From Arabidopsis thaliana (Eukaryota > Streptophyta > Magnoliopsida > Brassicales > Brassicaceae): DNA of 64,000 nucleotides. The stretch covers positions 1,922,101-1,986,100 of the forward strand of contig NC_003074.8 in NCBI RefSeq assembly GCF_000001735.4, in the 5' to 3' direction. Shown piece by piece: positions 2,560 to 62,942 of the stretch; positions within the stretch are counted from its first letter, which is position 1, and every line of letters begins with the position of its first letter. The translations under genes were made by a program, and so were the position numbers. The notes beneath the pieces were generated by a model. It had not been told where the DNA came from. It made no database searches and saw nothing but the letters and a program-made list of their open reading frames with translations.

Positions 2560-5500
2560 TCACTTACCGGGTAAACCGGTGAAGATCTCAAACTGCTCGT
2601 AAGCCTGCCTGACAAACATCTCTGACCCTGAGACAGTTATGGCTCCACTTTCTTCTGCTTCCCTCAACAGTCTGGTGATTCTCGGAGTGTATACCGCATC
2701 AAAGACCAGTGCATAGTGCTTCAATGCATCCTGGGGGAAACAAAGACAAGCTAGCTTACTAATTTGTCTTATAGATTTAAGATTTCAACAAAGTTTGCAT
2801 GCGATAAGCTGGCTTTTGGTATTTCAATAACAGAAAAAGGATAGAACAGTTCCTTCGTTACCTATAGAAAACAAAAGGATGAGCTGTTACAAGGAGAGCT
2901 TACCTTAGAAATTGGAGTCTCCTCAACATTTGGTTGCATACCCATAGATGTTGTGTTTGCCAAAACCATGCCATCTTCTGGGTGATAGTTATCTAAATCT
3001 GTCAGAGATAACGCTTTGCCTCCTATTGCTTCTGCGAGTTCTAGTGCTCGTTCTTTAGAAACACAACATCAGGAACAAAACAAATCATATCATCAGTTAC
3101 TACATCTAACATTATAACCAATAAAAGACGAGGAGAAGAAGAGTATTGTCAAGGTCGAGCATGACCGGTAATAGAATAATCTAAGGTGTTCACAAAGCGA
3201 AATTTCCAATTAAGGACATGTATTTTACCGTAAGTTCGATTAGCAATTACAACTTTGGCCCCCTTTTCTTTTGCACCATAAGCAAGAGCCTTGCCTGCTC
3301 CACCAGCACCAATAACCACCACTGTTTTACTGGCCAATGGCGAAGAAGAAGAAGGTACACTGCTTGGATCACCTGAACCTGAAAAAACAAACAGAGGAGA
3401 AGGCTCCATGACTAAAACCGAAACTTCTCCAAATGGAGCAAAAAGCTGTGAACATAGACTTACTTCGTAGGCCATCCTCAATAGCAGAAATGGAACCAAT
3501 ACAATCTGTGTTGTAACCCAACAACTTTCCGTCACTTTTTCTCCTTAGTATAGTGTTCACAGCTCCTATAGACTGTATGATATTAAAAGTAAACATTCAG
3601 GTTGAAGCAGGATGGCTATTTATGCTATCTGATAGTGATTGGGGTTGCGAACAAAATTATCTGCTGTTTTTAGCAAATCAGACCTTTGCCAATGGATCAA
3701 CTTCATCACAACATTGCAATGCAGCTTCTTTGTGCGGAATTGTACAGCTGCAGGTAAAAAAGATTTACATCATTCACCCCAAATTTTTCTATGCCTAGCA
3801 AACCTTAACAAATAAAAATAAAATCTGTATGATTCTGTTCACTACTCTAGAGAAAAAACAATTTTTGTCACCGTTATAGCATACCTGAATCCAGCGAAAT
3901 CAGAGGATGAGTATGCTTGAAGAAAGCTTACAAGATTATCAACTAACAGGTGGACATATACTCCATTAAAATCAACTGATTTGAAAGCTTGATTGTGAAC
4001 AATAGGTGATTTGCTGTGGCTGACAGGCTTGCCAATAATTCCATATACCTTTGTGTCAGGACCAATTCTTCTAAAGTTGTAAAGATCCAACAGATCCTTG
4101 ATCGTTGGTTGACCTGGCGCAGAAACTTTACTAGAATCTAAGGTGCCAAAGGTCAAATAACCACCAAATTTCGAACAAAGAATCCGAGACATCAAACCTC
4201 TTTCACCCATAACAAGTCCAATTGTGGGAACCTGAAATTTGAGTGAAAAGTTCAGACGATGACAACATGAAATCACAATCAGAAATCAGCACACAATTGA
4301 TTTAACTGCATGCTAGTACGCACTTACTTGAGCTTTTGAGGTTATATGGAACATGCGAGCAACATCTGCAATGTCCACAGCAGTAGTAGCAATCTTAACA
4401 ATGTCGGCTCCAGTCTGTTGTATTCTTGCAACAAGGCCATCAAGGTCCTCAACAGAAGGGGTATTCTGATAGTTGTGCGATGAAACAATTACTTTGAACT
4501 TTCCAGGCTTCTTTCCGTCAATAGATTTGATGAACTCACTTGCCACCTTAACATACAAATATAAAGTAGGAGAAACTAATTAGCATCAAAAACATCTTCT
4601 AAAATATCCAAAATATATTACGATGGTCACCTGAAGTTCAACATCAATATAATCAGCTCCCAACTCCATGGCCAGACGAAGCACATCCCGTCTCTCATTT
4701 TCATCACCTTCATACTGACCACCTTCCCATTTTGGTCTAAAGAGCAGACATTATACAAAAAACAACATTACTCATACTGCAGCCCAATAAGTAGCTCGTA
4801 ACTTATTGAAAGCTCGACACAATAAAGCACAAGAAGTTCGATATCAAACATTTAAAAAGTCTCAAGCTTGAACACACAAACCTGTAGGTGAATAAAGTGG
4901 GTAGAGGAGATTTCTTAATAATGGTTTTTAGATCCTCAAGAGGATTGAAGTCCTTTAGCCAATCTAATCGAATTTCAACCAAGTCTGCACCCAATTCATG
5001 GGCTTTACTCGTTTCAATCACCATCTTGTCTATTGAATCCGCCATCACTGGAGCACAGATCAAGCTCGGATTCTTCACGATATCATGACTTCCGATCTCC
5101 ATTTCCGTGGAATTTGAAGCCACCTGAGATCACAAAACAGGATAAATTCCACAATCAATTAAAAATCCAACTACTTCTCAGAACTAAACAAAAATTCTGA
5201 AGATCGATTCTAAATAGCTAAACCAATGTTGTACACGAAACATCAAAGTCTTCATCCAAAACTAATACCAAATTTATTTGAAGCGATAAATCTGCAAATT
5301 CATCATTACCTATCCTTCTCCAATAAAAACGGAACAGAAAACAACAAAAGAAAACTGAACTAAAGGAAGAATCACTAACATAGACATTGCTAGGTTCCAT
5401 GCTTCGCCGGCGCCTTTGATCGGAAAATACCACCGGAAACGGTACACTCCTTAGCCGCGGGGACGAAGAATCGGCAAAGAAGCGAGTGGAGAAATCGGCG

Positions 5501-36589: not shown

Positions 36590-37013
36590 TCGATGTTGAT
36601 GTGCAGATATTACTCTTTTATCTATTGCTTCCGTTGGAGTTTAGTTTTGTGGCAACAGTCTATTGTATGACTATCTGGGGATTTGGGAGTTTATCCGGCC
36701 GGCAAGCATACATTCATTGGTGTTGTTTGCAACGTTTACAACATTGTTATCATCTATCTTTTATTTACCATAGTAAGCTCTCTCTCTCTCTCTGGCTCTC
36801 ACTTATTGATGAATATATAGATAAGTAAACTATTAAACTGGTTTTGATAAGTTTTTAATGCGTGAAACAATTAGGACAAAATGCCGCCGGAGACTAAGAC
36901 CTTCAAGTACATGCCGTTTTGGCTATCGTTAGTTCGTTTCATCAACGCTGGAATTTGGACTGCTTATTCTTTGATCTACATAATTGATATCTACGTCCTT
37001 GTAAGTCCTTTTT
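36590..37013 (+). pseudogene. SWEET (MtN3/saliva) sugar-transporter pseudogene fragment
   Basis: Two exon remnants are visible. Around 36710-36770 the plus strand reads FIGVVCNVYNIVIIYLLFTI, preceded by ELF-type hydrophobic sequence from 36600. This matches the conserved GxVCNVFNIxMY segment of SWEETs. Around 36897-37011 it reads TFKYMPFWLSLVRFINAGIW and then TAYSLIYIIDIYVL, matching SVEYMPFxLSLxxFLNxxxWTxY. A donor (CTT/GTAAGTCC) follows. The N-terminal half and the later exons are absent, and frames between the two pieces do not join. The fragment stops where retroelement-derived DNA begins. It fits my memory of At3g06433, annotated as an MtN3 pseudogene. Confidence 0.75.
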
Positions 37014-37059: not shown

Positions 37060-38146
37060 AAGAAGGGCGAGCTAAAGAGTTTGAAGAGCTTAAAGGCGAG
37101 CTGAAGAGCTTAAGGCGAGCTGAAGAGCTTGAAGACGAGTTGGAGAGCTTGAAGACGAGCTGGGGGACTTGGTGAAGAGAACGAGTTGATAAGCTTGACG
37201 AAGAGGAGCGAGCTAACGAGCTTCTTGAGAAGGGCTCGCTGACGAGCTACTTGAGAAGGACGAGCTGACGAGCTATTTGAGACGGACGATCTTCGTGAGA
37301 CGGGCGAGCTGACAATGTGCTGTCTCGGTGATAGTCAAGCGAGACGACACGTAGTCCATATTAGAAAGGGGTCAAGCCACACGTAGTTCATATTAGAATA
37401 AGTGAGCTAGGCCGTCATTGGAGGTAGGTCGGCAGGTAGTTGACGAGCCGGCAGATGTGCGACAAGCTGGATGAACCGTGGTAGAGAGACGAGTTGGATA
37501 AACCGAGTTGTTTGCTGAAGGTCTAGACGAGCTGGACGACGAGATAGGTGGACTATGCAGTCAATGGACGAACTGCCGCTAGGCGAGGAGGTAGATGAGT
37601 TTTGTTTTCGAGGGATGAGCTGATAGCTAGACGAGGAGTTGGACGAGCTGTATAGATGACAGCTAGACGAGGAGATGGTCGTTGAGTGGAGCATGAAGAC
37701 GAGCTGAGAAGCTTGAAGACGAGTTGAGGAGCTTGAAGACGAGCTTAGCAGCTTGTTGAGCTTAATGGCGATCTGAAGAGTTTGAAGAGCTTAAAGACGA
37801 GTTGGAGAGCTTGAAGACGAGCTGAGGGACTTGGTGAAGAGAACGAGTTGATAAGCTTGTCGAAGAGGAGCGAGCTAACGAGCTTCTTGAGAAGGGCTCG
37901 CTGACGAGCTACTTGAGAAAGGCGAGCTACTCTGTGTCTGCGTGTCAGGCGGAATTCCCCCCTTCGACATGACATGCTATTCCGTATTTATAGCACTACG
38001 CGTGTAGGGCATTCATCGAGGGATTTGACGAAACTACCCTTCGCCTTAATACTCCTCCTTGGTTTGGAACTTATTTTGGGCTTTTGACTTGGGTTTGGGC
38101 ATTGGGCCAAGTAGGCCCAATCCGACCCCTAATAGTTCGGCAAGGA
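37060..38146 (-). mobile_element. Rearranged LTR fragment(s) of the local Ty3/gypsy-type element, minus orientation
   Basis: Read on the minus strand from 38146 it begins TTAGGGGTCGGATTGGGCC and continues through a U3-like part with a TATA box (CTATAAATAC, complement at 37983-37992). It then enters DNA dominated by degenerate AGCTCGTC / TCTTCAAGCTC repeats, then sequence matching the LTR at 38780-38860 (near 37380-37450), then more degenerate repeats. The normal LTR 3' end (GCATCAACA) and a primer-binding site are not found, so it is truncated or scrambled. Open frames at 37407-37694 and 37745-37975 are by-products of the repeats. It differs from the 38555 LTR by keeping the U3 promoter part. 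Confidence 0.65.
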
Positions 38147-38554
38147 GGAGTATATGATTTTAACCCCCCCCCCCATTAAATCTCCTGATACGTATTGAAA
38201 CTTGAGGGTTTATGGTTTATGTTATGTTTCACTTATTTTGATCGTGTGTTGAGTTTTGTAATGAGGATATTATTATCATGTCTGTTACTTTTGGACTTGT
38301 TAAATTTTCGTAAACGTTGTTGCTTTTGTTGTATCGGGGCACACTTATCCGGATTTATCGATTATGCAATTGCCCTACTACATCACATTATTATTTAAAT
38401 TTGTCTTCAAGTTTTTATTTCGCATAGCACATATATAAAGAAAACGCTTCGTTCAAACTCGTCTGTGAACTCCATAAAACTTATTAAAAAATCCGTCCAA
38501 AAAAATATATAGTATAGTTTGGATCGCATGAAAACATATCTAAACATAAGTCTT

Positions 38555-39102
38555 TGTTAGGGGTCGGATTGGGCCCTTCTCAAGTAGTTCATCAGCTCGC
38601 TCCTCTTCGTCAAGCTCTTCAGCTCTTCAAACTCCTCGGCTCGTCCTCAAGCTCCTCAGCTCGTCTTCAAGCTCTTCCCATCACAGCGACCATGTCCTCG
38701 CCGCCTAGCTGTCAGCTAGTCAGCTCGTCCAACTCCTCGTCTAGCTATAGCTCATCCCTCGTCAACTACCTGCCGACCTACCTCCAATGACGGCCTAGCT
38801 CACTTATTCTAATATGAACTACGTGTGGCTTGATCCCTTTCTAAGGGTACGTAGGCAACCTTTTACAAGGTTCAGCTATAAAACGAATAAACTCTATTCT
38901 TCCTCGGACATTAAGTTCGTCTTCCGGCCTCAAGCTCGCCTTTCATCTACAATCAGCTCGTTCTTACTCCATCAATGCTCGTTGAAGAAATCATCCTTTG
39001 AAATCCGTCCAATTCGCCTAAGTCGCAGGCTCGTCTTTAATAGAAAGATTCTTCCTTCCCTAGAGATCCCATTTTCGTACTTGTGTGATTCGTGCATCAA
39101 CA
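38555..39102 (+). mobile_element. 5' LTR of a Tat/Ogre-like retroelement, U3-deleted
   Basis: A 548-bp LTR beginning TGTTAGGGG and ending GCATCAACA (TG...CA), followed two bases later by a primer-binding site. The U3 segment with TATA box, present in the copies at 41385 and 37983-38146, is missing: GGATTGGGCC is joined directly to CTTCTCAAGTAG. This copy is therefore probably transcriptionally dead. The inverted partner at 49763-50345 shares the deletion. Confidence 0.75.
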
Positions 39103-39104
39103 GT

Positions 39105-39122
39105 TGGCGCGCCAGGTAGGGG
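39105..39122 (+). other. Primer-binding site complementary to tRNA-Arg
   Basis: TGGCGCGCCAGGTAGGGG lies two bases after the LTR. Its complement ends CTGGCGCGCCA, which fits the acceptor end plus CCA of a plant tRNA-Arg (CCU-type, from memory). Arg primers are described for Ogre/Tat elements of the Ty3/gypsy group. Confidence 0.7.
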
Positions 39123-39170
39123 GATAGCTCGAAGATATCTCTCAAAACTACGACCCCGCGACGAAGCAAA

Positions 39171-39806
39171 GTGACAACAAACAGACTACATGGAGCATTC
39201 GATACCGACTCGTCAGGCTCTGGAAGTAAAACGACAACGTCGATCCCCGGGAGAGCCAGTCACTCGACCTCTTCATTCGATATCGCAGCATGTTCGACAA
39301 GAAAAGGACTTCAAGGAACTATCGACCCCATCATCCTAGGCGATGACACTTCCAGCCCGGCAGTCAGGACAATAACACTGACCAACGAGGAAGTGCCGCT
39401 GATTAAAGAGGAACATCCCATAACCTCATTAAACATACCGACCTCGTTATCACTCACGCCTAACCAAGAACAAGAGGAGAAGTCATCAGGCGGACGTCAC
39501 TTGGAGAACCTCGACGATGACACTACCAGCTCGGCAGCTCGGACGATAACGTCAGCGCACGGGAAAACTCAAATAAAGGAAGAATACTACTCGGCGTCAT
39601 CTATTGTACCGACCTCGTTATCGCCCACGCCTGAATACCTAGCGTTGCAAAAAGACCAAGGAGAAGCTTCACTTAGCCGATTTCATCGCCTGGACGATAC
39701 GGCTAAAGCCAACCAACGCGGCGAAGAACTACTCAACATCATCATCGATCATTTAAAGCAGCGCGACGCGATTATTAACCGCCGCCCAAGAGCACATACA
39801 AGATAA
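39171..39806 (+). CDS. Retroelement leader ORF, gag-like position, no recognised domain
   Basis: 211 residues, Ser/Thr-rich and hydrophilic (TTNRLHGAFDTDSSGSGS...), starting 68 bases after the primer-binding site. It contains two internally related segments: PTSLSLTPNQEQEE and PTSLSPTPEYLALQ, each after an IKEE motif. An extra ORF upstream of or at the head of gag is typical of Tat/Ogre elements, but I cannot identify a capsid domain, zinc knuckle, protease or polymerase downstream. The inverted partner at 48958-49385 shares about the first 140 residues. Function unknown and probably defunct. Confidence 0.5.
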   Translation: MTTNRLHGAFDTDSSGSGSKTTTSIPGRASHSTSSFDIAACSTRKGLQGTIDPIILGDDTSSPAVRTITLTNEEVPLIKEEHPITSLNIPTSLSLTPNQEQEEKSSGGRHLENLDDDTTSSAARTITSAHGKTQIKEEYYSASSIVPTSLSPTPEYLALQKDQGEASLSRFHRLDDTAKANQRGEELLNIIIDHLKQRDAIINRRPRAHTR

Positions 39807-40659
39807 AATTAGCCGCATGCACATGAGTCGTTATTCGCATACCCAACCTACGCGAAGAAATTCAGGTTGTCTTAAACCAACCCAGCTCGGCAATTCCTCA
39901 GACCGCTATAAACGAGATACCAAGTGCAAGACCTTCACTCCCAAATCAATTGAGCCATCTCCAGGGTCCATCAGGTCGGATGCGCCATAAGAGATATCGA
40001 TGATCCGACATCGACGATCCGACACTGACGCCAATGTTTAGCGAATACCGCAAAGCAATGACCACACCAAAACGACTAACAAAACACATCATGTCGGCAG
40101 GCTACGAGAAGCTAAACGAAAGAACCAGACGGCTCTGGACGTACACAATGACGCAACCAACCAAACGCCATTTGCGCCATCTTGCAGAGTGAAAGTAACA
40201 GCACCCGCTGGAGCTAGGCGAACTGAAGAAAAGCCAAACTCTCCACAACAGCAAAATTCACATCGTCACTCAAAACGTCGGAGATCTCGTTCCAACGCCA
40301 TCCCACTAAAACGAAGAAAACGATGCCGCTTAGCATAACGTCACGTCGGACGAACGAACTGACAAGAACTAGGGCAGACATTGAGCATCGTCTTTTCGAT
40401 AATTGTATCAACGAACTCGACCGTCAAAACTCGATCGTACCACAAACTCTTGCGTTGAGATAAGTAAAATTTTCGTTTTTGTCGTAATTCAATTCGTCAG
40501 TATTCTTAAAAAGGGTTCCGCTGGACCTCGTAGCGATCGAGCTAATTTACATCGGTGTCCTGGCCCGGCATTCGATCGATAAACGAACGCACGAACCCCT
40601 TAAGTATGCCATGTATCGGTAAAACGGTCTTGGATAAAACCTACACTTAAGGGAGTGCT
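39807..40659 (+). mobile_element. Decayed retroelement interior
   Basis: Between the leader ORF and the tandem array. GC content is higher than in flanking plant DNA, similar to the leader ORF, with many stops in all frames. It contains no reverse transcriptase, integrase or zinc-knuckle motif that I can read. The polyprotein is essentially deleted, so this is a non-autonomous or relic element. Confidence 0.5.
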
Positions 40660-41384
40660 AAGCCGAGCTCCGCGCTCGCACCGTTTCGACGGAATCAATA
40701 GTTTCGACAAACTTTGGTTTCGTCGGACGACAGATTAAGCCGAGCTCCGCGCTCGCACCGCTTCGACAGAATCAATAGTTTCGACAACTTTGGTTTCGTC
40801 GGACGACAGATTAAGCCGAGCTCGCACCACTTCGACGGAATCAATAGTTTCGACAACTTTGGTTTCGTCGGACGACAGATTAAGCCGAGCTCCTCGCACC
40901 GCTTCGACGAAATCAATAGTTTCGACAACTTTGGTTTCGTCGGACGACAGATTAAGCCGAGCTCGCACCGCTTCGACGGAAGTTTCGACAACTTTGGTTT
41001 CGTCGGACGACAGATTAAGCCGAGCTCCGCGCTCGCACCGCTTCGACGGAATCAATAGTTTCGACAACTTTGGTTTCGTCGGACGACAGATTAAGCCGAG
41101 CTCCTCGCACCGCTTCGACGAAATCAATAGTTTCGACAACTTTGGTTTCGTCGGACGACAGATTAAGCCGAGCTCGCACCGCTTCGACGGAAGTTTCGAC
41201 AACTTTGGTTTCGTCGGACGACAGATTAAGCCGAGCTCCGCGCTCGCACCGTTTCGACGGAATCAATAGTTTCGACATCTTTGGTTTCTTCGGACGACAG
41301 ATTAAGCCGAGCTCCGCGCTCGCACCGTTTCGACGGAATCAATAGTTTCGACATCTTTGGTTTCTTCGGACGACAGATTAAGCC
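40660..41384 (+). repeat. Tandem array, about 10 copies of a 65-80 bp unit
   Basis: The unit runs GAGCTCGCACCGCTTCGACG, AATCAATAGTTTCGACAAC, TTTGGTTTCGTCGGACGAC, AGATTAAGCC. Copies end near 40739, 40817, 40887, 40956, 41022, 41094, 41170, 41231, 41308 and 41384. Length variants arise from small deletions (CTCCGCG present or absent, AATCAATAG present or absent). All six frames are long and open because the unit lacks stops, so the overlapping open frames here are artefacts. Tandem arrays just before the 3' LTR are characteristic of Tat/Ogre elements. Confidence 0.88.
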
Positions 41385-41625
41385 TACTTGGCCCAATGCC
41401 CAAACCCAAGTCAAAAACCCAAAATAAGTTCCAAACCAAGGAGTATTAAGGCGAAGGGTAGTTTCGTCAAATCCTTCGATGAATGCCCTACACGCATAGT
41501 GCTATAAATACGGAATAGCATGTCCTGTCACGAGGGGGATTCGGCCAGGACACTTAGAGACAAAGAGTAGCTCGCCCGTCTCAAGTAGCTCGTCCGTCTC
41601 AAGTAGCTTGTCCTTCTCAAGTAGT
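41385..41625 (+). mobile_element. Partial 3' LTR retaining the U3 promoter, fused to the inverted repeat
   Basis: TACTTGGCCCAATGCCCAAAC to TCCTTCTCAAGTAG matches the minus-strand LTR starting at 38146, lacking roughly its first 20 bases. It includes the TATA box and then AGCTCGTC-type repeats. It stops abruptly at 41625 and is joined to a membrane-protein gene fragment, with no LTR terminus at the junction. This points to an illegitimate rearrangement rather than a simple insertion. Confidence 0.75.
41502..41511 (+). promoter_or_regulatory. LTR TATA box facing the hairpin locus
   Basis: CTATAAATAC in the partial LTR. A start site about 30 bases downstream would fall near 41535-41540, some 90 bases before the left arm of the inverted repeat. 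The same box is conserved in the LTR copy at 37983-37992. Activity is inferred. Confidence 0.5.
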
Positions 41626-41626
41626 T

Positions 41627-41968
41627 CACAGAGCACATCGATGGGTGAGAACTGTTATCCCTCTCATACTGACCATCATCTACTTTACTGTCTTCAATTT
41701 CCAAACCCTTGCAGCATCTGTTTTGATCATATCAGTGGTTTTTGGAATTTTCGTGTTGGTTCAGTTGGTTTTCCCTCTAGAAGGATTTTACTTTTTTTAT
41801 GTAGTGCTCATTTTGTTATTTGGATGCTGCTCAGCTGTATTTGCTGGTCAGTATGATCCCAAAACCCAGCCATTTGGGTTCTGCCTATTAACTCTCTTTG
41901 TTTTTGAAATGTTTTTCTACTTTTTCAACTATCCTGGGCCTACTAATAGGGCATTCAGTTTCTATTAG
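41627..41968 (+). pseudogene. Truncated copy of the 200-residue membrane protein gene at 48002-48604
   Basis: It reads from VRTVIPLILTIIYFTVFNF to the end GPTNRAFSFY with stop at 41966-41968. It lacks the first ~95 residues of the intact copy, which are replaced by LTR sequence. A small deletion removes one residue (LILTII against LILLTII). There is no proper start codon, although LTR-driven transcripts would include it. Confidence 0.8.
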
Positions 41969-44307
41969 ATTACTCTCAAAATGATTGTCAGATCTAATTC
42001 ACAAGAGACTTTTTTTGCATGTATAAATATCTGGATATTTAAGCATGACTTAGACTATCTATTTTTTTTTTTATAAATTATATTAGTTGATCTGGTTAGT
42101 TTGGTTAGGAAGGTATTAAAATATTACAAAGTGGATTTTTTTCTTAAATGACCGCTACACTGCTTATCTCGAATTTGGAATATTTCCATACTAATGTTTG
42201 GGAGTAGCCATATAGCCTATTGTTGGACTACCATCATAATATAAACTGTTAGGGTCTAATCTAGATTTTCGATATAAATGTGATATTTGTTTTAGGAAAG
42301 CTCGAACCCTTGGAGAGTGTTTTAGCACATCCCAAATCTCACTAATTACGGATAACTATGCATATATCTATTTTTAGATCTCTTATATTTGAAAACTAGC
42401 TAGATAGATTTTTTGAGACAAATCATTACCATTCAAAGCACCTCATATCTAACTAGATGAATGTGGTAGATGCAACTCTTTTTTTTTCTTTATTAGAAAT
42501 TTAGGATACAGTCTTTATTAGTGAGACGCTATAACTCAACGGAATATTGTTGTGACCAACATTTACCTAATTCGTATCCTTACAATCTCAAGATGGCAGC
42601 ATAGTAAACGTTGGATATATGCTTTATCTTCTTCTTTTTATATCCAAAATATATAACGTTGTTTACCGTAATGCCGTCGAAAATGAGTATCATAGGGGAA
42701 CTTTTTTGTAGACGTTGACAATTCAGTAGGGACCTCAAGATTACAGAAGAAGGAACAAAATAAGGAATGCTTCTGATTCATTGTCCATTGACGAGAGAAC
42801 TTATTGGCCTTTTGCATGTAAACTAATAAATACATATCTTTTTTTTTGTCTAAAAGATAAATACATATCTTAAGTGTCGTCTTTCCACTAAGCAGATTTC
42901 TCACCTGTGCAAATATTGTCCCTCTAAGAAAAACCTTTTCTTTATGTAAACATTGTCCCTAATCATGTTTTCCAATTATGTCTTGGATACTAGACAAAAT
43001 TCGAAAAGACACTCATATTTTTATATACATCCCAATATAAAATTTTTTTATCCTACACTAGAAAACACATATAAAATAGAAATGGCGATGCATGTGAAGA
43101 TATGATAAATTAAGTCTAGGCCTCCGTTATGACCCGAAACAAAATTTCTAAACCGACCGAACCAGTTTTGAAAAGTATCCAACCCTATAAACTCATCATA
43201 AAAGTGTTTATTTTCTAATTTTCAGCTCAATATATGTCAATTCTTATAAAAGCCCCCAATATGAATACCAGTTAAAAAAAAAAAAAATGAATACCAGTTA
43301 CCACGCAGTTGCCCAACGTAAAACTACGATTTCTCTATTATAGCATTAATTATTAGTAAACAAAAATTGTGTAGACTATGATTAATTTAGGGTTTGAAAA
43401 CTTACCTAAACATAAAATGAACAAGCGGATGAATTTTACAACTCCCAATACATTTGGTAATCATATTAAATTATTCTACTATATGAATTAAGCTTATTAA
43501 ACTAAACAATGTCTTTATCCAAGAAGAAATTAAGTACTGATGATGCTGACCGGATGTCAAAAGAAAAAAAAAGTATTGACCAAAAAGTCCAAAAAAAATT
43601 GTTGCCGTTGGGGAAGAATCGCGACCTTCAATCCCGTCGCTGTCATCTTCTTTATATTCTTATTTTTTTATTTTTTATTTTTTACAGAAATCATCTTACT
43701 TTATATAAAAGACAAAATACAGGGGCTTTTAGGGTTGTTTTATTGTTTACTGAAGGAGTAAATAAGTAAATGTTTATCTACAGAAAAAAAATTAAGATTA
43801 CCACATCAAATTGTGTTACTTAGTACTATTAATATAAAATTTTAAAAAGGAAAATGATTACCACTACTCATTATTGGAATACCCTGGATACTTATTAGGT
43901 TTTATCATTATTTGTTTAAAGTAAATTTTTTTGTCTGATTTTTTTTTCTTTCTAAACTATAAAAATTCAAATAATTCGGGTCAATTTTGAAATTACAAAA
44001 TACAAATTATGCATAAATACATGTAAACAAAAACATCATTTGTATGCTTCAATACGAACCTTATGAAAAAAAATCCATTGGCATAACTAATTAAATTAAA
44101 GTTTCACACAAATACAACTGAAAAAAAAAAGAGGGACGAATGCACGTGCATAAACGACAAACAATGAATGAAAATGGTAAAAAAGATTTTATTTTTCTTA
44201 TAAAACAACCCACGGTGCCACTCCTATTTCCTCTCGCTCTTCTTTCTCCACCATTTTCAGATCCATTTCTAAGCTTCTTCCTTTCCCTTTCCCTTTCTAC
44301 ATTGTCA

Positions 44308-45189
44308 ATGGTTAATTTTGGGGATTTTGTTTTCGGGGTTTATCACTTTGTTTACCAGTTTGTTCTCCATCCCATTTACCAGTATGTTATGCGTCCTATC
44401 TTCCTCTTTGTTTACCAGTTTGTTCTCCATCCCATTTACCAGTATGTTATGCGTCCTATCTTCCTCTTTATATTGAGACCTATTTACTTGGGAATCAATA
44501 GGGTTTTGGGAGGGATCTCGTGGTTGTATGGGTTTAGATACACTCTGATGGTGCAAGGTATACTTTGTTACTGGAGAGCGTTTCTATACTTTGAGCGATC
44601 AAGTTTGTGGGAAAAGTTTGTAGAGAAACATGAGAGAAATCACGAAAAATCTTATTTAATCCCACTTTTGTGGACTATGAATGGGGTTTTCCTTATCTTT
44701 ATCATCCTTCTGGTTTTGGCTGCAACTCTTGCGGTAGAAGCCAATATGAGGAAAGTTTTTAATATTCAAGGACAGATTGGAGTTAACTTTTATTGTCTAG
44801 GTAAGAGTACCGGGGAAGTATCAGTTTTAAGGTTAATGGTTTATATAAGTGATCCTGTTGCAGATAAATCGGTAGCTGAAATGAATGTTGCTTCATGCTT
44901 TGTGTGTAGTTATCTAAGCGTTGTTAGTCTTATGAAACTTTGCTATGTGGGGAATGATTTAGGGTTCATAGATGGGATAGCTTCTGTAGCCTTATCTATA
45001 TTCACCCATTATTGTGAAGCCTATCATTGTAGAGTACTTGGGATCTTCATATGTTGGGGTATGATATTGCTAAAGAACATTTTATTCACCGCTTGCTGTC
45101 GACGTTATCTGCAACATGGTCACTTATATAAACCATTAACCTTAAAATTGATACTTCCCCGGTACTCTTACCTAGACAATAAAAGTTAA
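44308..45189 (+). CDS. Unknown multi-pass membrane protein (gene H), C-terminus chimeric
   Basis: From ATG 44308 (MVNFGDFVFGVYHFVYQF) 293 residues are open. The frame is also open from 44140, but 44140-44307 is pyrimidine-rich and looks like a leader. A 20-residue hydrophobic/aromatic unit (FVYQFVLHPIYQYVMRPIFL) is repeated in tandem, then further membrane segments follow (NGVFLIFIILLVLAATLA). The frame crosses the 237-bp loop and continues 85 bases into the right arm, ending LKLILPRYSYLDNKS. That last stretch is the antisense of its own upstream coding sequence, so the natural C-terminus is lost. I recognise no family. Confidence 0.55.
   Translation: MVNFGDFVFGVYHFVYQFVLHPIYQYVMRPIFLFVYQFVLHPIYQYVMRPIFLFILRPIYLGINRVLGGISWLYGFRYTLMVQGILCYWRAFLYFERSSLWEKFVEKHERNHEKSYLIPLLWTMNGVFLIFIILLVLAATLAVEANMRKVFNIQGQIGVNFYCLGKSTGEVSVLRLMVYISDPVADKSVAEMNVASCFVCSYLSVVSLMKLCYVGNDLGFIDGIASVALSIFTHYCEAYHCRVLGIFICWGMILLKNILFTACCRRYLQHGHLYKPLTLKLILPRYSYLDNKS
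44346..44465 (+). repeat. Exact 60-bp tandem duplication within gene H
   Basis: Two 60-base copies starting CTTTGTTTACCAGTTTGTTC, with a perfect match apart from the boundaries. It adds 20 residues in frame. The right-arm copy carries the same duplication (about 45507-45626), with one base difference that changes YVM to YLM, so it predates the inverted duplication. Confidence 0.9.
44868..45104. repeat. Loop between the inverted arms
   Basis: 237 bp present once. It is open in the gene H frame (KSVAEMNVASCFVCSYLSVV...) and reads as plausible membrane-protein sequence. The loop is therefore probably the original continuation of gene H, which the right arm lacks. Confidence 0.8.
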
Positions 45190-45664
45190 CTCCAATCTGT
45201 CCTTGAATATTAAAAACTTTCCTCATATTGGCTTCTCCCGCAAGAGTTGCAGCAAAAACCAGAAGGATGATAAAGATAAGGAAAACCCCATTCATAGTCC
45301 ACAAAAGTGGGATTAAATAAGATTTTTCGTGATTTCTCTCATGTTTCTCTACAAACTTTTCCCACAAACTTGATCTCTCAAAGTATAGAAACGTTCTCCA
45401 GTAACAAAGTATACCTTGCACCATCAGAGTGTATCTAAACCCATACAACCACGAGATCCCTCCCAAAACCCTATTGATACCCAAGTAAATAGGTCTCAAT
45501 ATAAAGAGGAAGATAGGACGCATAAGATACTGGTAAATGGGATGGAGAACAAACTGGTAAACAAAGAGGAAGATAGGACGCATAACATACTGGTAAATGG
45601 GATGGAGAACAAACTGGTAAACAAAGTGATAAACCCCGAAAACAAAATCCCCAAAATTAACCAT
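45086..45664 (-). pseudogene. Second copy of gene H, truncated at the loop junction
   Basis: Minus-strand frame from ATG 45662-45664 (MVNFGDFVFG), nearly identical to the left copy until residue VAD. It then runs into the loop in the wrong orientation and stops after NVDSKR. It lacks the C-terminal membrane segments of the left copy. Confidence 0.7.
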
Positions 45665-48347
45665 TGACAATGTAGAAAGGGAAAGGGAAAGGAAGAAGCT
45701 TAGAAATGGATCTGAAAATGGTGGAGAAAGAAGAGCGAGAGGAAATAGGAGTGGCACCGTGGGTTGTTTTATAAGAAAAATAAAATCTTTTTTACCATTT
45801 TCATTCATTGTTTGTCGTTTATGCACGTGCATTCGTCCCTCTCTTTTTTTTTCAGTTGTATTTGTGTGAAACTTTAATTTAATTAGTTATACCAATGGAT
45901 TTTTTTTCATAAGGTTCGTATTGAAGCATACAAATGATGTTTTTGTTTACATGTATTTATGCATAATTTGTATTTTGTAATTTCAGAATTGACCCGAATT
46001 ATTTGAATTTTTATAGTTTAGAAAGAAAAAAAATCAGACAAAAAAATTTACTTTAAACAAATAATGAAAAAACCTAATAAGTATCCAGGGTATTCCAATA
46101 ATGAGTAGTGGTAATCATTTTCCTTTTTAAAATTTTATATTAATAGTACTAAGTAACACAATTTGATGTGGTAATCTTAATTTTTTTTCTGTAGATAAAC
46201 ATTTACTTATTTACTCCTTCAGTAAACAATAAAACAACCCTAAAAGCGCATGTATTTTGTCTTTTATATAAAGTAAGATGATTTCTGTAAAAAATAAAAA
46301 ATAAAAAAATAAGAATATAAAGAAGATGACAGCGACGGGATTGAAGGTCGCGATTCTTCCCCAACGGCAACAATTTTTTTTGGACTTTTTGGTCAATACT
46401 TTTTTTTTCTTTTGACATCCGGTCAGCATCATCAGTACTTAATTTCTTCTTGGATAAAGACATTGTTTAGTTTAATAAGCTTAATTCATATAGTAGAATA
46501 ATTTAATATGATTACCAAATGTATTAGGAGTTGTAAAATTCATCCGCTTGTTCATTTTATGTTTAGGTAAGTTTTCAAACCCTAAATTAATCATAGTCTA
46601 CACAATTTTTGTTTACTAATAATTAATGCTATAATAGAGAAATCGTAGTTTTACGTTGGGCAACTGCGTGGTAACTGGTATTCATTTTTTTTTTTTTAAC
46701 TGGTATTCATATTGGGGGCTTTTATAAGAATTGACATATATTGAGCTGAAAATTAGAAAATAAACACTTTTATGATGAGTTAATAGGGTTGGATACTTTT
46801 CAAAACTGGCTCGGTCGGTTTAGAAATTTTGTTTCGGGTCATAACGGAGGCCTAGACTTAATTTATCATATCTTCACATGCATCGCCATTTCTATTTTAT
46901 ATGTGTTTTCTAGTGTAGGATAAAAATTTTTATATTGGGATGTATATAAAAATATGAGTGTCTTTTCGAATTTTTTCTAGTATCCAAGACATAATTGGAA
47001 AACATGATTAGGGACAATGTTTACATAAAGAAAAGGTTTTTCTTAGAGGGACAATATTTGCACAGGTGAGAAATCTGCTTAGTGGAAAGACGACACTTAA
47101 GATATGTATTTATTTTTTAGACAAAAAAAAAGATATGTATTTATTAGTTTACATGCAAAAGGCCAATAAGTTCTCTCGTCAATGGACAATGAATCAGAAG
47201 CATTCCTTATTTTGTTCCTTCTTCTGTATTCTTGAGGTCCCTACTGAATTGTCAACGTCTACAAAAAAGTTCCCCTATGATACTCATTTTCGACGGCATT
47301 ACGGTAAACAACGTTATATATTTTGGATATAAAAAGAAGAAGATAAAGCATATATCCAACGTTTACTATGCTGCCATCTTGAGATTGTAAGGATACGAAT
47401 TAGGTAAATGTTGGTCACAACAATATTCCGTTGAGTTATAGCGTCTCACTAATAAAGACTGTATCCTAAATTTCTAATAAAGAAAAAAAAAGAGTTGCAT
47501 CTACCACATTCATCTAGTTAGATATGAGGTGCTTTGAATGGTAATGATTTGTCTCAAAAAATCTATCTAGCTAGTTTTCAAATATAAGAGATCTAAAAAT
47601 AGATATATACATAGTTATCCGTAATTAGTGAGATTTGGGATGTGCTAAAACACTCTCCAAGGGTTCGAGCTTTCCTAAAACAAATATCACATTTATATCG
47701 AAAATCTAGATTAGACCCTAACAGTTTATATTATGATGGTAGTCCAACAATAGGCTATATGGCTACTCCCAAACATTAGTATGGAAATATTCCAAATTCG
47801 AGATAAGCAGTGTAGCGGTCATTTAAGAAAAAAATCCACTTTGTAATATTTTAATACCTTCCTAACCAAACTAACAAGATCAACTAATATAATTTATAAA
47901 AAAAAAAATAGATAGTCTAAGTCATGCTTAAATATCCAGATATTTATACATGCAAAAAAAGTCTCTTGTGAATTAGATCTGACAATCATTTTGAGAGTAA
48001 TCTAATAGAATTTGAATGCCCTATTAGTAGGCCCAGGATAGTAGAAAAAGTAGAAAAACATTTCAAAAACAAAGAGAGTTAATAGGCAGAACCCAAATGG
48101 CTGGGTTTTGGGATCATACTGACCAGCAAATACAGCTGAGCAGCATCCAAATAACAAAATGAGCACTACATAAAAAAAGTAAAATCTTTCTACAGGGAAA
48201 ACCAACTGAACCAACACGAAAATTCCAAAAACCACTGATATGATCAAAACAGATGCTGCAAGGGTTTGGAAATTGAAGACAGTAAAGTAGATTATGGTAA
48301 GCAGTATGAGAGGGATAACAGTTCTCACCCATCGATGTGCTCTGTAA
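45105..48347 (-). repeat. Inverted repeat, right arm
   Basis: Reverse complement of 41627-44867. The homology ends at about 48347 (ATGGGTGAGAAC region, minus sense, just after CAGAGCACATCG). Beyond that the right side continues as the undisturbed 5' part of gene G, while the left side changes to LTR sequence. Confidence 0.95.
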
Positions 48348-48604
48348 ACTGGAGATGGAGCTTCAGAGAAAATGGAATGCAAGACTGGAATCACATAGAT
48401 AGCTACAACAAACATTACCAGATAAGAGACATCCATCTGGATCTCCAAGGCATTCACAGCACCCACAGCTCCAAAAACGCAGAGAAAAGCCATGATAGTC
48501 CAACCAAATCTGGTTACTGGATCATTCACACCAAACACTTCAACTCTCTGGGGAATCTTCGTCTTTCCTTTATTATTTTGGTTTCGCTTAGATTTTTTGG
48601 CCAT
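48002..48604 (-). CDS. Unknown 200-residue membrane protein (gene G), intact copy
   Basis: One exon from ATG 48602-48604 to TAG 48002-48004. The N-terminus is basic and Asn/Lys-rich (MAKKSKRNQNNKGKTK). Hydrophobic segments follow at about residues 35-52, 60-76, 97-140 (two passes), 146-165 and 172-190, giving five to six passes. I recognise no catalytic motif and no family. The leader (48605-48780) contains a GAAA microsatellite near 48691-48710. Residues from about 95 onward are also present in the left arm, so hairpin-derived small RNAs could match this mRNA. It probably corresponds to At3g06435. Confidence 0.7.
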   Translation of the reverse strand: MAKKSKRNQNNKGKTKIPQRVEVFGVNDPVTRFGWTIMAFLCVFGAVGAVNALEIQMDVSYLVMFVVAIYVIPVLHSIFSEAPSPVYRAHRWVRTVIPLILLTIIYFTVFNFQTLAASVLIISVVFGIFVLVQLVFPVERFYFFYVVLILLFGCCSAVFAGQYDPKTQPFGFCLLTLFVFEMFFYFFYYPGPTNRAFKFY

Positions 48605-48957
48605 TGTTGCCGGGGTTTTTCTTTTATAGAGATGGAGTTAGGAAGATGAACTGCGACGGATAAGAAAGATGCTTTAAAAGCGACGGGAAAAAGAAAGAAA
48701 GAAAGAAAGATGCTCTAAAACTAGGGTTTGCTTCTTTCTTTAAACCGGGAAAGTAAGTAAAACCATGTGCTGCTTTTGACAACTGTCATCCGCTCACTGT
48801 TTTTTATTTTTGGAAAACCACTAAGTTTTATTTTTATTTTGGTTTTAGTTAATAGCATACCGTGTTGATTCGTCTGCTAGCCTTTTTAAAAAGTAATGAT
48901 TTTTTTACCTGCAAATAACTAGGTTGAAAAAGTAATAATAAAATTTTTTTACATACC

Positions 48958-49385
48958 GAGTAGTATTCTTCCTTTATTTGAGTTGTCTTCCCGTGCGCTG
49001 ACGTTATCGTCCGAGCTGCCGAGCTGGGAGTGTCATCGTCGAGGTTCTCCAAGTGACGCCCGCCTGATGACTTCTCCTCTTGTTCTTGGTTAGGCGTGAG
49101 TGATAACGAGGTCGGTATGTTTAATGAGGTTATGGGATGTTCCTCTTTGATCGGCGGCACTTCCTCGTTGGTCAGTGTTATTGTCCTGACTGCCGGGCTG
49201 GAAGTGTCATCGCCTAGGATGATGGGGTCGATAGTTCCTTGAAGTCCTTTTCTTGTCGGAGAACATGCTGCGATATCGAATGAAGAGGTCGAGTGACTGG
49301 CTCTCCCGGGGATCGACGTTGTCGTTTTACTTCCAGAGCCTGACGAGTCGGTATCGAATGCTCCATGTAGTCTGTTTGTTATCAC
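48958..49385 (-). pseudogene. Retroelement leader ORF, right inverted copy, truncated
   Basis: Minus-strand frame (ITNRLHGAFDTDSSGSGS...), nearly identical to the frame at 39171, until KEEYYS at 48958. After that the reading enters unrelated AT-rich sequence (48849-48957) and ends. The element was broken here when it became joined to the gene G leader region. Confidence 0.75.
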
Positions 49386-49422
49386 TTTGCTTCGTCGCGG
49401 GGTCGTAGTTTTGAGAGATATC

Positions 49423-50040
49423 TTCGAGCTATCCCCCTACCTGGCGCGCCAACTGTTGATGCACGAATCACACAAGTACGAAAATGGGATCTCTAGGGAA
49501 GGAAGAATCTTTCTATTAAAGACGAGCCTGCGACTTAGGCGAATTGGACGGATTACAAAGGATGATTTCTTCAACGAGCATAGATGGAGTAAGAACGAGC
49601 TGATTGTAGATGAAAGGCGAGCTTGATGCCGGAAGACGAACTTGATGTCCGAGGAAGAATAGAGTTTATTCGTTTTATAGCTGAACCTTGTAAAAGGTTG
49701 CCTACGTACCCTTAGAAAGGGATCAAGCCACTTCGAGCTATCCCCCTACCTGGCGCGCCAACTGTTGATGCACGAATCACACAAGTACGAAAATGGGATC
49801 TCTAGGGAAGGAAGAATCTTTCTATTAAAGACGAGCCTGCGACTTAGGCGAATTGGACGGATTACAAAGGATGATTTCTTCAACGAGCATAGATGGAGTA
49901 AGAACGAGCTGATTGTAGATGAAAGGCGAGCTTGAGGCCGGAAGACGAACTTGATGTCCGAGGAAGAATAGAGTTTATTCGTTTTATAGCTGAACCTTGT
50001 AAAAGGTTGCCTACGTACCCTTAGAAAGGGATCAAGCCAC
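49423..50040 (-). repeat. 309-bp tandem duplication spanning LTR end and primer-binding site
   Basis: 49423-49731 and 49732-50040 are direct copies, each running from TTCGAGCTATCCCCC to GGGATCAAGCCAC. I see about one base difference, so it is young. As a result the primer-binding site occurs twice (49434-49451 and 49743-49760). Confidence 0.9.
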
Positions 50041-50345
50041 ACGTAGTTCATATTAGAATAAGTGAGCTAGGCCGTCATTGGAGGTAGGTCGGCAGGTAGT
50101 TGACGAGGGATGAGCTGATAGCTAGACGAGGAGTTGGACGAGCTGACTAGCTGACAGCTAGGCGAGGAAATGGTCGCTGAGTGATGGGAAGAGCTTGAAG
50201 ACGAGCTGAGGAGCTTGAGGACGAGTCGAGTTTGAAGAGCTTAAAGGCGATCTGAAGAGCTTGACGAAGTGGAGCGAGCTAACGAGCTTCTTGAGAAGGG
50301 CGAGCTGATGAACTACTTGAGAAGGGCCCAATCCGACCCCTAACA
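49763..50345 (-). mobile_element. LTR of the retroelement, right inverted copy, U3-deleted
   Basis: On the minus strand it begins TGTTAGGGGTCGGATTGGGCC at 50345 and ends GCATCAACA at 49763. It is joined to the primer-binding site of the outer duplicated unit. A second LTR 3' portion occupies 49454-49731. The same U3 deletion is seen as in the left copy. Confidence 0.75.
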
Positions 50346-50812
50346 AAGACTTATGTTTAGATATGTTTTCATGCGATCCAAACTATACTATATATTTTTT
50401 TGGACGGATTTTTTAATAAGTTTTATGGAGTTCACAGACGAGTTTGAACGAAGCGTTTTCTTTATATATGTGCTATGCGAAATAAAAACTTGAAGACAAA
50501 TTTAAATAATAATGTGATGTAGTAGGGCAATTGCATAATCGATAAATCCGGATAAGTGTGCCCCGATACAACAAAAGCAACAACGTTTACGAGGACAATG
50601 AATAAGACACTAATGGCACCTTTGACACGCTCCTGGCCTATAAACTATGGTTCGAATATGTTTGTAGATATGCTGATTGAGAGAATCTACAAAGACAGAT
50701 AATAGCCAATATACTCTGACATACTCGAGCCAGTGTGTCTTTAACTGGGAGAACTTCTTCCTGAAGTGTGAAACAGAACCAGAAAAGTTACATACGTACA
50801 TGCTCGAGAGAT

Positions 50813-60580: not shown

Positions 60581-61477
60581 ATGGCATCTGTTTACTCCAC
60601 CCTAACCTACTGGCTCGTCCACCACCCCTACATTGCCAACTTCACGTGGACCGAAGGTGAAACACTAGGCTCCACCGTTTTCTTTGTCTTTGTCGTCGTC
60701 TCCCTTTACCTCTCCGCCACATTCCTCCTCCGATACACCGTCGATTCACTCCCCACACTCGGTCCCCGCATTCTCAAACCAATCACAGCCGTTCACAGCC
60801 TCATTCTCTTCCTCCTCTCCTTAACCATGGCCGTTGGTTGCACTCTCTCCCTAATCTCTTCCTCGGACCCGAAGGCGCGTCTCTTCGACGCCGTTTGTTT
60901 CCCCCTCGACGTGAAACCTAAGGGACCGCTTTTCTTTTGGGCTCAAGTCTTTTACCTCTCGAAGATCCTTGAGTTCGTAGACACACTTCTCATCATACTC
61001 AACAAATCAATCCAACGGCTCTCGTTCCTCCACGTCTACCACCACGCAACGGTTGTGATTTTGTGCTACCTCTGGTTACGAACACGTCAATCGATGTTTC
61101 CTGTTGGGCTCGTGTTGAACTCGACGGTCCATGTGATTATGTACGGGTACTATTTCCTCTGCGCTATCGGATCGAGGCCCAAGTGGAAGAAGTTGGTGAC
61201 GAATTTTCAAATGGTTCAGTTTGCTTTCGGCATGGGGTTAGGAGCCGCTTGGATGCTCCCAGAGCATTATTTCGGGTCGGGTTGCGCCGGGATTTGGACA
61301 GTTTATTTCAATGGTGTGTTTACTGCTTCTCTATTGGCTCTCTTCTACAACTTCCACTCCAAGAACTATGAGAAGACTACAACGTCGCCTTTGTATAAGA
61401 TCGAATCCTTTATATTTATTCACGGAGAGAGGTGGGCAAATAAAGCGATTACATTATTTTCCAAGAAAAACGATTAA
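60581..61477 (+). CDS. ELO-type fatty acid elongase condensing enzyme (GNS1/SUR4 family), copy 1
   Basis: Single exon, 298 residues, from MASVYSTLTYWLVHHPYI to TLFSKKND. ELO proteins are multi-pass ER membrane enzymes that condense malonyl-CoA with long acyl-CoA. The histidine box LHVYHHATVV (61030-61060) is intact, as are KILEFVDTLLIIL upstream of it and STVHVIMYGYYFLCAIG (61119-61170). There are about seven hydrophobic segments. The C-terminus lacks a clear di-lysine signal but ends in KK-rich FSKKND. It is a tandem paralogue of the gene at 62106; the extra tail from about residue 267 (TTTSPLYKIESFIFIHGERW) is specific to this copy. Plants make most very-long-chain fatty acids with unrelated FAE1-type enzymes, so the role of ELO genes here is less settled. 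Confidence 0.93.
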   Translation: MASVYSTLTYWLVHHPYIANFTWTEGETLGSTVFFVFVVVSLYLSATFLLRYTVDSLPTLGPRILKPITAVHSLILFLLSLTMAVGCTLSLISSSDPKARLFDAVCFPLDVKPKGPLFFWAQVFYLSKILEFVDTLLIILNKSIQRLSFLHVYHHATVVILCYLWLRTRQSMFPVGLVLNSTVHVIMYGYYFLCAIGSRPKWKKLVTNFQMVQFAFGMGLGAAWMLPEHYFGSGCAGIWTVYFNGVFTASLLALFYNFHSKNYEKTTTSPLYKIESFIFIHGERWANKAITLFSKKND

Positions 61478-62105: not shown

Positions 62106-62942
62106 ATGGCATCAATTTACTCCTCTTTAACCTACTGGCTCGTTAACCACCCCTACATCTCCAATTTTACTTGGATCGAAGGTGAAACCCTAGGCTCCAC
62201 CGTCTTTTTCGTATCCGTCGTAGTCTCCGTTTACCTCTCCGCCACGTTCCTCCTCCGATCCGCCATCGATTCACTCCCATCACTCAGTCCACGTATCCTC
62301 AAACCGATCACAGCCGTCCACAGCCTAATCCTCTGTCTCCTCTCCTTAGTCATGGCCGTCGGTTGCACTCTCTCAATAACCTCATCTCACGCGTCTTCAG
62401 ATCCGATGGCGCGTTTCCTTCACGCGATTTGCTTTCCCGTCGACGTTAAACCTAACGGACCGCTTTTCTTCTGGGCTCAAGTCTTCTACCTCTCGAAGAT
62501 CCTCGAGTTCGGAGACACGATCCTCATCATACTCGGCAAATCAATCCAACGGCTATCCTTCCTCCACGTGTACCACCACGCGACGGTTGTGGTCATGTGT
62601 TATCTCTGGCTCCGAACTCGCCAATCGATGTTTCCGATTGCGCTCGTGACGAATTCGACGGTACACGTCATCATGTACGGTTACTACTTCCTCTGCGCCG
62701 TTGGATCGAGGCCCAAGTGGAAGAGATTGGTGACGGATTGTCAGATTGTTCAGTTTGTTTTCAGTTTCGGGTTATCCGGTTGGATGCTCCGAGAGCACTT
62801 ATTCGGGTCGGGTTGCACCGGGATTTGGGGATGGTGTTTCAACGCTGCATTTAATGCTTCTCTTTTGGCTCTCTTTTCCAACTTCCATTCAAAGAATTAT
62901 GTCAAGAAGCCAACGAGAGAGGATGGCAAAAAAAGCGATTAG
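62106..62942 (+). CDS. ELO-type fatty acid elongase condensing enzyme, copy 2
   Basis: Single exon, 278 residues, MASIYSSLTYWLVNHPYI to KKPTREDGKKSD. It has the same His box LHVYHHATVV (62560-62590), SKILEFGDTILIIL before it and TNSTVHVIMYGYYFLCAVG after it. The C-terminus KKSD (-4, -3 lysines) fits an ER retrieval KKXX signal. It differs from copy 1 by a four-residue insertion (SHAS) in the second loop and a shorter tail. I recall the pair as At3g06460 and At3g06470. No intron is seen. Confidence 0.93.
   Translation: MASIYSSLTYWLVNHPYISNFTWIEGETLGSTVFFVSVVVSVYLSATFLLRSAIDSLPSLSPRILKPITAVHSLILCLLSLVMAVGCTLSITSSHASSDPMARFLHAICFPVDVKPNGPLFFWAQVFYLSKILEFGDTILIILGKSIQRLSFLHVYHHATVVVMCYLWLRTRQSMFPIALVTNSTVHVIMYGYYFLCAVGSRPKWKRLVTDCQIVQFVFSFGLSGWMLREHLFGSGCTGIWGWCFNAAFNASLLALFSNFHSKNYVKKPTREDGKKSD

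Follow-up and report, generated by a model that had tools for sequence, protein, structure and literature searches.

IR71 and its repeat on chromosome 3

The known system to which the locus considered here is compared is IR71 of Arabidopsis thaliana, whose double-stranded RNA of approximately 3 kb is reported to be processed by DCL2 and DCL3, with DCL4 acting secondarily; its small interfering RNAs (siRNAs) are mainly 22 and 24 nt long, those of all sizes are reduced in dcl1-11, and heat shock is said to induce its transcription (PMC12825306). The siRNAs are described as independent of RNA-dependent RNA polymerases (RDRs) (PMC3091872), and the precursor, which RTL1 cleaves, is visible in dcl234 flowers (PMC4687873). 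Grafts with a T-DNA line at IR71 showed movement of siRNAs or their precursor from shoot to root, and methylation in cis as well as silencing of reporter transgenes in trans have been reported (PMC2902426, a meeting report). As ATSL133150, the locus is characterized by high methylation in all contexts and as "enriched in 21 nt sRNAs" (PMC5910406). Here, we analyzed a window of 64,000 nucleotides from the A. thaliana reference assembly (Chr3:1922101-1986100), in which a first-pass annotation, made from the sequence without database searches, had noticed a long inverted repeat and proposed that it was IR71 or its counterpart in another accession.

A genome search placed the repeat at Chr3:1963727-1970447. 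The secondary-structure prediction published for IR71 in 2026 used TAIR10 Chr3:1962100-1972099, reverse-complemented (PMC12825306); with the assembly's contig C3 equated with Chr3 of TAIR10 by its number, this interval corresponds to window positions 40000-49999, and the repeat falls wholly within it. The coordinate comparison suggested at first pass thus agrees, and the locus is IR71 of A. thaliana in the reference accession. It is therefore already known and well studied, and the present analysis adds a description of the structure around it and of its probable origin. That annotation stated that such loci are diced by several DCL enzymes without RDRs and that the siRNAs of IR71 are mobile; the first has support in print (PMC12825306, PMC3091872), and so has the second, for siRNAs or their precursor (PMC2902426). 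Its equation of IR71 with At3g06435 found no support in the available excerpts of the literature; in published stress or methylation gene lists, At3g06435 figures by its code or is labelled expressed, hypothetical, or uncharacterized, and one such list marks its region from -388 to +77 as non-methylated.

Self-BLASTN returned a single inverted match of 3,249 columns (41623-44867 versus 48350-45105; 98.86% identity; E = 0). In a global alignment of the core arms (41627-44867 versus 45105-48346), 3,238 bases were aligned, of which 30 were substituted (99.07% identity when gaps are disregarded). Gaps occurred 5 times, and the longest stretch free of differences measured 379 bp. Chance similarity of the arms is excluded. 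The near-perfect 3.24-kb inverted duplication seen at first pass, with rare indels, paired coordinates summing to 89970-89973, and a 237-bp loop at 44868-45104, therefore stands, as do its left arm and the start of its right arm, whereas the right arm ends at 48346, one base short of the 48347 given then. For the minus-strand RNA from 48604 to 41627, the predicted fold had an energy of -5,618.7 kcal/mol, and 3,228 of 3,348 pairs joined the arms in register. By alignment and fold prediction, this is a near-perfect long inverted repeat that can fold as one RNA.

Could the repeat have been introduced into the reference by faulty assembly or by cloning, given that long inverted repeats are difficult to assemble? 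We regard this as scarcely credible, as the arms differ at the 30 sites and 5 gaps above and have different neighbours, and are therefore distinct sequences; the published precursor RNA, Dicer-dependent siRNAs, and T-DNA line also fit real DNA (PMC12825306, PMC4687873, PMC2902426).

Genome searches covered 7 contigs with 119,662,809 bases, and match counts from them are lower bounds. With 41627-48347 as query, at least 11 matches were obtained (5 of 5 candidates scored), including the segment itself and each arm on the other. Outside matches comprised a 340-bp relative on Chr4 (88%) and three stretches of 79 to 87 bp on Chr5, Chr3, and Chr2 (74 to 85%). A terminal-inverted-repeat transposon or miniature inverted-repeat transposable element (MITE) was rejected, as the arms have no further copy in the assembly and their longest outside match is the 340-bp one. 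A MIRNA gene or other RNA family was likewise rejected, with no match in Rfam 15 at gathering thresholds over the whole window.

A larger inverted duplication with unequal arms

The first-pass extent of 41627-48347 captured the core and missed a duplication reaching further out: by self-BLASTN and alignment, 38308-39594 pairs in inverted orientation, with gaps, with 48956-50592. The segment 38308-38557 has exactly two matches in the assembly, the other being Chr3:1972443-1972692 (window 50343-50592), inverted and 100% identical, and position 38307, immediately 5′ of the left flank, is not duplicated and so forms the outer breakpoint. Inside the flanks lie copies of a long terminal repeat (LTR) element. 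Its LTR ends were defined by a solo LTR at Chr3:22767 kb, whose termini are TG...CA and which, judged by eye, is bordered on each side by the 5-bp repeat ACAGT. The LTR starts at 38555 and 50345 adjoin the duplicated flank, and both LTR copies are shortened alike near the start. Over 38825-39594, the outer comparison gave 9 substitutions and 761 matches, near the rate of the stem.

The two sides are not equal in content. Within the left internal part of the LTR element, a right-arm counterpart exists for 39103-39594 only, and 39595-41622, which holds the rest of the element with a tandem array of approximately 76-bp units (40675-41384, detected with TRF) and the 3′ LTR fragment, has none on the right. 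Conversely, 48347-48955, which comprises the 5′ end of an open reading frame (ORF) here called gene 1 together with the sequence upstream of it, has no counterpart on the left. Because the flank 38308-38554 is unique and common to both arms, we infer one inverted duplication of approximately 12.3 kb (38308-50592), with the stem as its core, and not two insertions; a separate deletion in each arm is the simplest reading of the unequal arms. The same flank bears on the alternative that the outer pairs are unrelated to the stem, two LTR elements of one family having inserted independently and in opposite orientation on either side of a 3.24-kb inverted repeat. The family is common enough to invite this idea, with at least 92 matches in the assembly (40 of 59 candidates scored) and a further fragment, in opposite orientation, at 37063-38134. 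However, the duplicated flank is not LTR sequence, is 100% identical, and occurs nowhere else in the assembly, which refutes independent insertion unless the flank came by a separate conversion, and the two LTR copies carry the same shortening near their start; we hold this alternative to be very improbable.

The inner end of the duplication lies in a second ORF, gene 2, which has a partial relative at Chr4:2073256-2073614 (in DNA, Chr4:2073270-2073609, 88% over 340 bases). This relative is colinear with the left arm and loop up to 45106 and then diverges, and the junction of right arm and loop is not colinear with it. Because colinearity stops there, the junction of left arm and loop appears to be old sequence and 45104/45105 the rearrangement breakpoint; judged by this colinearity, the middle of gene 2 was left unduplicated and forms the loop. 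Approximately 2 bp (TT) are, by eye, common to both sides of the breakpoint, which would be compatible with microhomology-mediated template switching. Neither gene 2 ORF matched a Pfam family at or above the cut-off (best E = 0.2; no family).

Together with the published biology, we propose the following account. A single minus-strand RNA would fold back into a stem of approximately 3.24 kb, 99% paired, with a 237-nt loop, and DCL2, DCL3, and DCL4, aided by DCL1, would cut this hairpin into 21-, 22-, and 24-nt siRNAs, as in the published steps. No RDR would be needed because the hairpin RNA supplies its own second strand. Transcription would begin at the gene 1 upstream region, which survives beside the right arm only. 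The 12.3-kb duplication would have taken in the flank, a portion of the LTR element, all of gene 1, and the greater part of gene 2, with copying turned back inside gene 2 at the spot that the loop marks. Afterwards, a separate deletion in each arm would have removed sequence lying between the LTR element and gene 1, and the left-arm deletion would thereby have cost that arm its promoter side. For this joint account of minus-strand hairpin, RDR-free dicing, right-to-left transcription, and larger duplication with arm deletions, we estimate a probability of roughly 0.92. As to its evolutionary part, we lean slightly towards the view that IR71 is the surviving core of a single fold-back duplication, approximately 12.3 kb long, of an LTR element and two genes. 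On this view, the palindrome was symmetric at first, and unequal deletions in its arms left a promoter on one side only, which made it a hairpin gene read in one direction.

Table 1. Features of the IR71 locus and its surroundings (window coordinates)
Position	Strand	Feature	Basis or remark
38135-38307	+	Short relic with similarity to sequence 3′ of the Chr4 gene 2 relative, outside the duplication	Weak
38308-38554	+	Left outer flank	Inverted duplicate at 50346-50592
38555-39102	+	5′ LTR of LTR element, internally shortened	Comparison with solo LTR
39103-41384	+	Internal part of LTR element, left arm	95% match (query 201-2827) at Chr4:11208672-11211326
41385-41622	+	3′ LTR fragment fused directly to gene 1 sequence; presumed end of left-arm deletion	LTR order; junction comparison
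41627-44867	+	Left arm of IR71 stem	Alignment with right arm
44140-45189	+	Gene 2 ORF, 349 aa, from left arm through loop into first right-arm bases	ORF list; genome search
44868-45104	.	Loop, 237 bp, apparent unduplicated middle of gene 2	Colinear, together with left-arm end, with Chr4:2073270-2073609 (88%)
45086-45832	-	Right-arm counterpart of gene 2, 248 aa	ORF list
45105-48346	-	Right arm of IR71 stem	Alignment with left arm
48002-48604	-	Gene 1, intact 200-aa ORF, putative membrane protein	ORF list; genome search
48605-48955	-	Presumed promoter side of hairpin transcript	Single-copy; motif scan; promoter role inferred
48956-50345	-	Right-arm copy of LTR element: internal remnant and LTR	Self-BLASTN; TRF; junction comparison
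50346-50592	-	Right outer flank, inverted copy of 38308-38554	Genome search

Several sequences in and around the duplication merit separate mention. A 309-bp tandem duplication (99.7%) at 49422-50040 lies in the right-arm LTR copy and is absent from the left arm; it would either have arisen after the inverted duplication or have been lost on the left. The relic at 38135-38307 is squeezed between head-to-head LTR starts at 38134 and 38555. Its segment 38136-38204 aligned locally with positions 5325-5389 of the Chr4-relative locus (L008) with a weak score of 54, and the BLASTN match of the relic to that locus spans 28 bp (E = 1.7e-4). It may be what is left of a second, tandem gene 2 copy, and we treat it as a lead. 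Further out, 36881-37003 looks like the remainder of an exon encoding part of an MtN3/SWEET sugar transporter, truncated by LTR sequence that begins at about 37063; its match to Pfam MtN3_slv (E = 0.00031; 21.2 bits) falls just short of the cut-off of 23.7.

Transcription, gene 1, and divergence of the arms

Hairpin transcription probably runs from right to left, starting from the gene 1 upstream region, because only the right arm keeps that region and the 5′ end of the 200-aa ORF; the left arm keeps only the last 116 or so residues (open to 41968). A promoter would thus be possible on one side only, consistent with the published use of the reverse complement. By genome search, 48351-48955 is single-copy in the assembly, and a motif scan found a telobox-like AAACCCTA 125 bases before the gene 1 ATG.

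Several points weigh against the proposed account. The promoter assignment has its whole basis in the ORF start on one arm and the published use of the reverse complement, and the motif scan found a TATA-like site, TATAAA, just 24 bases before the gene 1 ATG. Over the 351 bp before gene 1, the same scan turned up no perfect two-unit heat-shock element, despite the reported heat induction, so it leaves the heat response unexplained. Divergence is uneven, with 0 substitutions in the 249-bp flank comparison versus about 1% elsewhere. Published size profiles disagree, 22 and 24 nt in one source (PMC12825306) versus 21 nt in the other (PMC5910406). Finally, the order of events, a duplication followed by two deletions, is the simplest reading and is unproven.

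The hydrophobic sequence of gene 1 suggests a putative membrane protein. Its sole other match in the assembly is a relative on Chr5 with 28% identity and an ORF of 229 aa, and no Pfam family reached the curated cut-off for gene 1 (best E = 0.23) or for the Chr5 relative (best E = 0.83). These features leave room for a different emphasis, in which gene 1 continues to function as a protein gene and the locus serves first of all for coding, its mRNA happening to read into the hairpin. The ORF is intact, has that relative, and keeps its frames in both arms, where the sole indel in the gene 1 overlap is 3 bp. Yet 12 of the 16 differences between the ORF parts of the arms alter a residue, so that nothing points to coding constraint after the duplication, and the ORF lies mostly inside the stem and would be diced. 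We therefore consider a working gene 1 unlikely.

Those ORF parts differ at 16 of 899 sites versus 14 of 2,339 in the rest of the arms (p = 0.003). The excess weakens to p = 0.016 when edges are trimmed and to p = 0.095 under a longer ORF definition, and a test of even spacing gave p = 0.31. Uneven divergence along the arms was dropped as evidence, being too weak over this range of ORF definitions. The differences comprise 12 transitions and 18 transversions, a small sample, and transitions are few for a locus reported to be highly methylated (PMC5910406); with a yardstick of 55% transitions p was 0.10, and with one of 70% it was 0.0009, the two yardsticks being assumptions. When sites were polarised by relatives, 6 were left-derived and 3 right-derived in the LTR part, and all 3 in the Chr4-covered part of the stem were, by eye, left-derived; the combined bias of 9 to 3 (p = 0.15) allows no conclusion. 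The stem divergence of 30/3,238 (0.93%) translates into a rough age of about 0.66 million years, assuming a rate of 7e-9 per site per year and the absence of gene conversion, and such an age would make the duplication specific to A. thaliana.

Implications and comparison with known systems

IR71 serves as a standard probe of Dicer-like activity and of mobile siRNAs, and experiments of this kind are easier to interpret when its borders, the side of its promoter, and its origin are known. If it is specific to A. thaliana, its presence or absence could vary among accessions; searches of a partial literature collection gave nothing on its origin or natural variation. Three outside loci were compared with the arms for identical stretches of 18 nt or longer. 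Only the Chr4 gene 2 fragment has one, of 32 nt, and it is a candidate trans target of IR71 siRNAs; the other two (L006 and L007) had none. Our account predicts that the outer LTR arms should lie outside the main hairpin transcript. Should the account be true and hold more widely, loss of the promoter from one arm may be a common stage in the origin of hairpin siRNA loci.

Two further repeats occur in the window. A foldback of approximately 290 bp at 1920-2211, 82.8% self-inverted, is an ordinary MITE-like repeat with at least 79 matches in the assembly (40 of 44 candidates scored). A direct repeat of approximately 800 bp (60581-61370 and 62106-62901; 82.5% identity) probably represents tandem gene relatives.

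Compared with IR71 as published, the locus has the same chromosome interval, the same stem of approximately 3 kb, and the same direction, by reverse complement (PMC12825306). The stem shows no difference, and the available parts of the published descriptions mention neither the outer duplication nor the LTR element nor how the loop arose. The other standard endogenous inverted-repeat locus, IR2039, has been paired with IR71 for similar processing and high methylation (PMC5910406). The two are separate loci, and IR2039 is compared here by its published description only. Young MIRNA genes are reportedly born by inverted duplication, as Allen and colleagues are said to have described in 2004. Like them, the IR71 locus originates from an inverted duplication of gene sequence; unlike them, it has a near-perfect stem of kilobase length and gives rise to many siRNAs instead of one miRNA.

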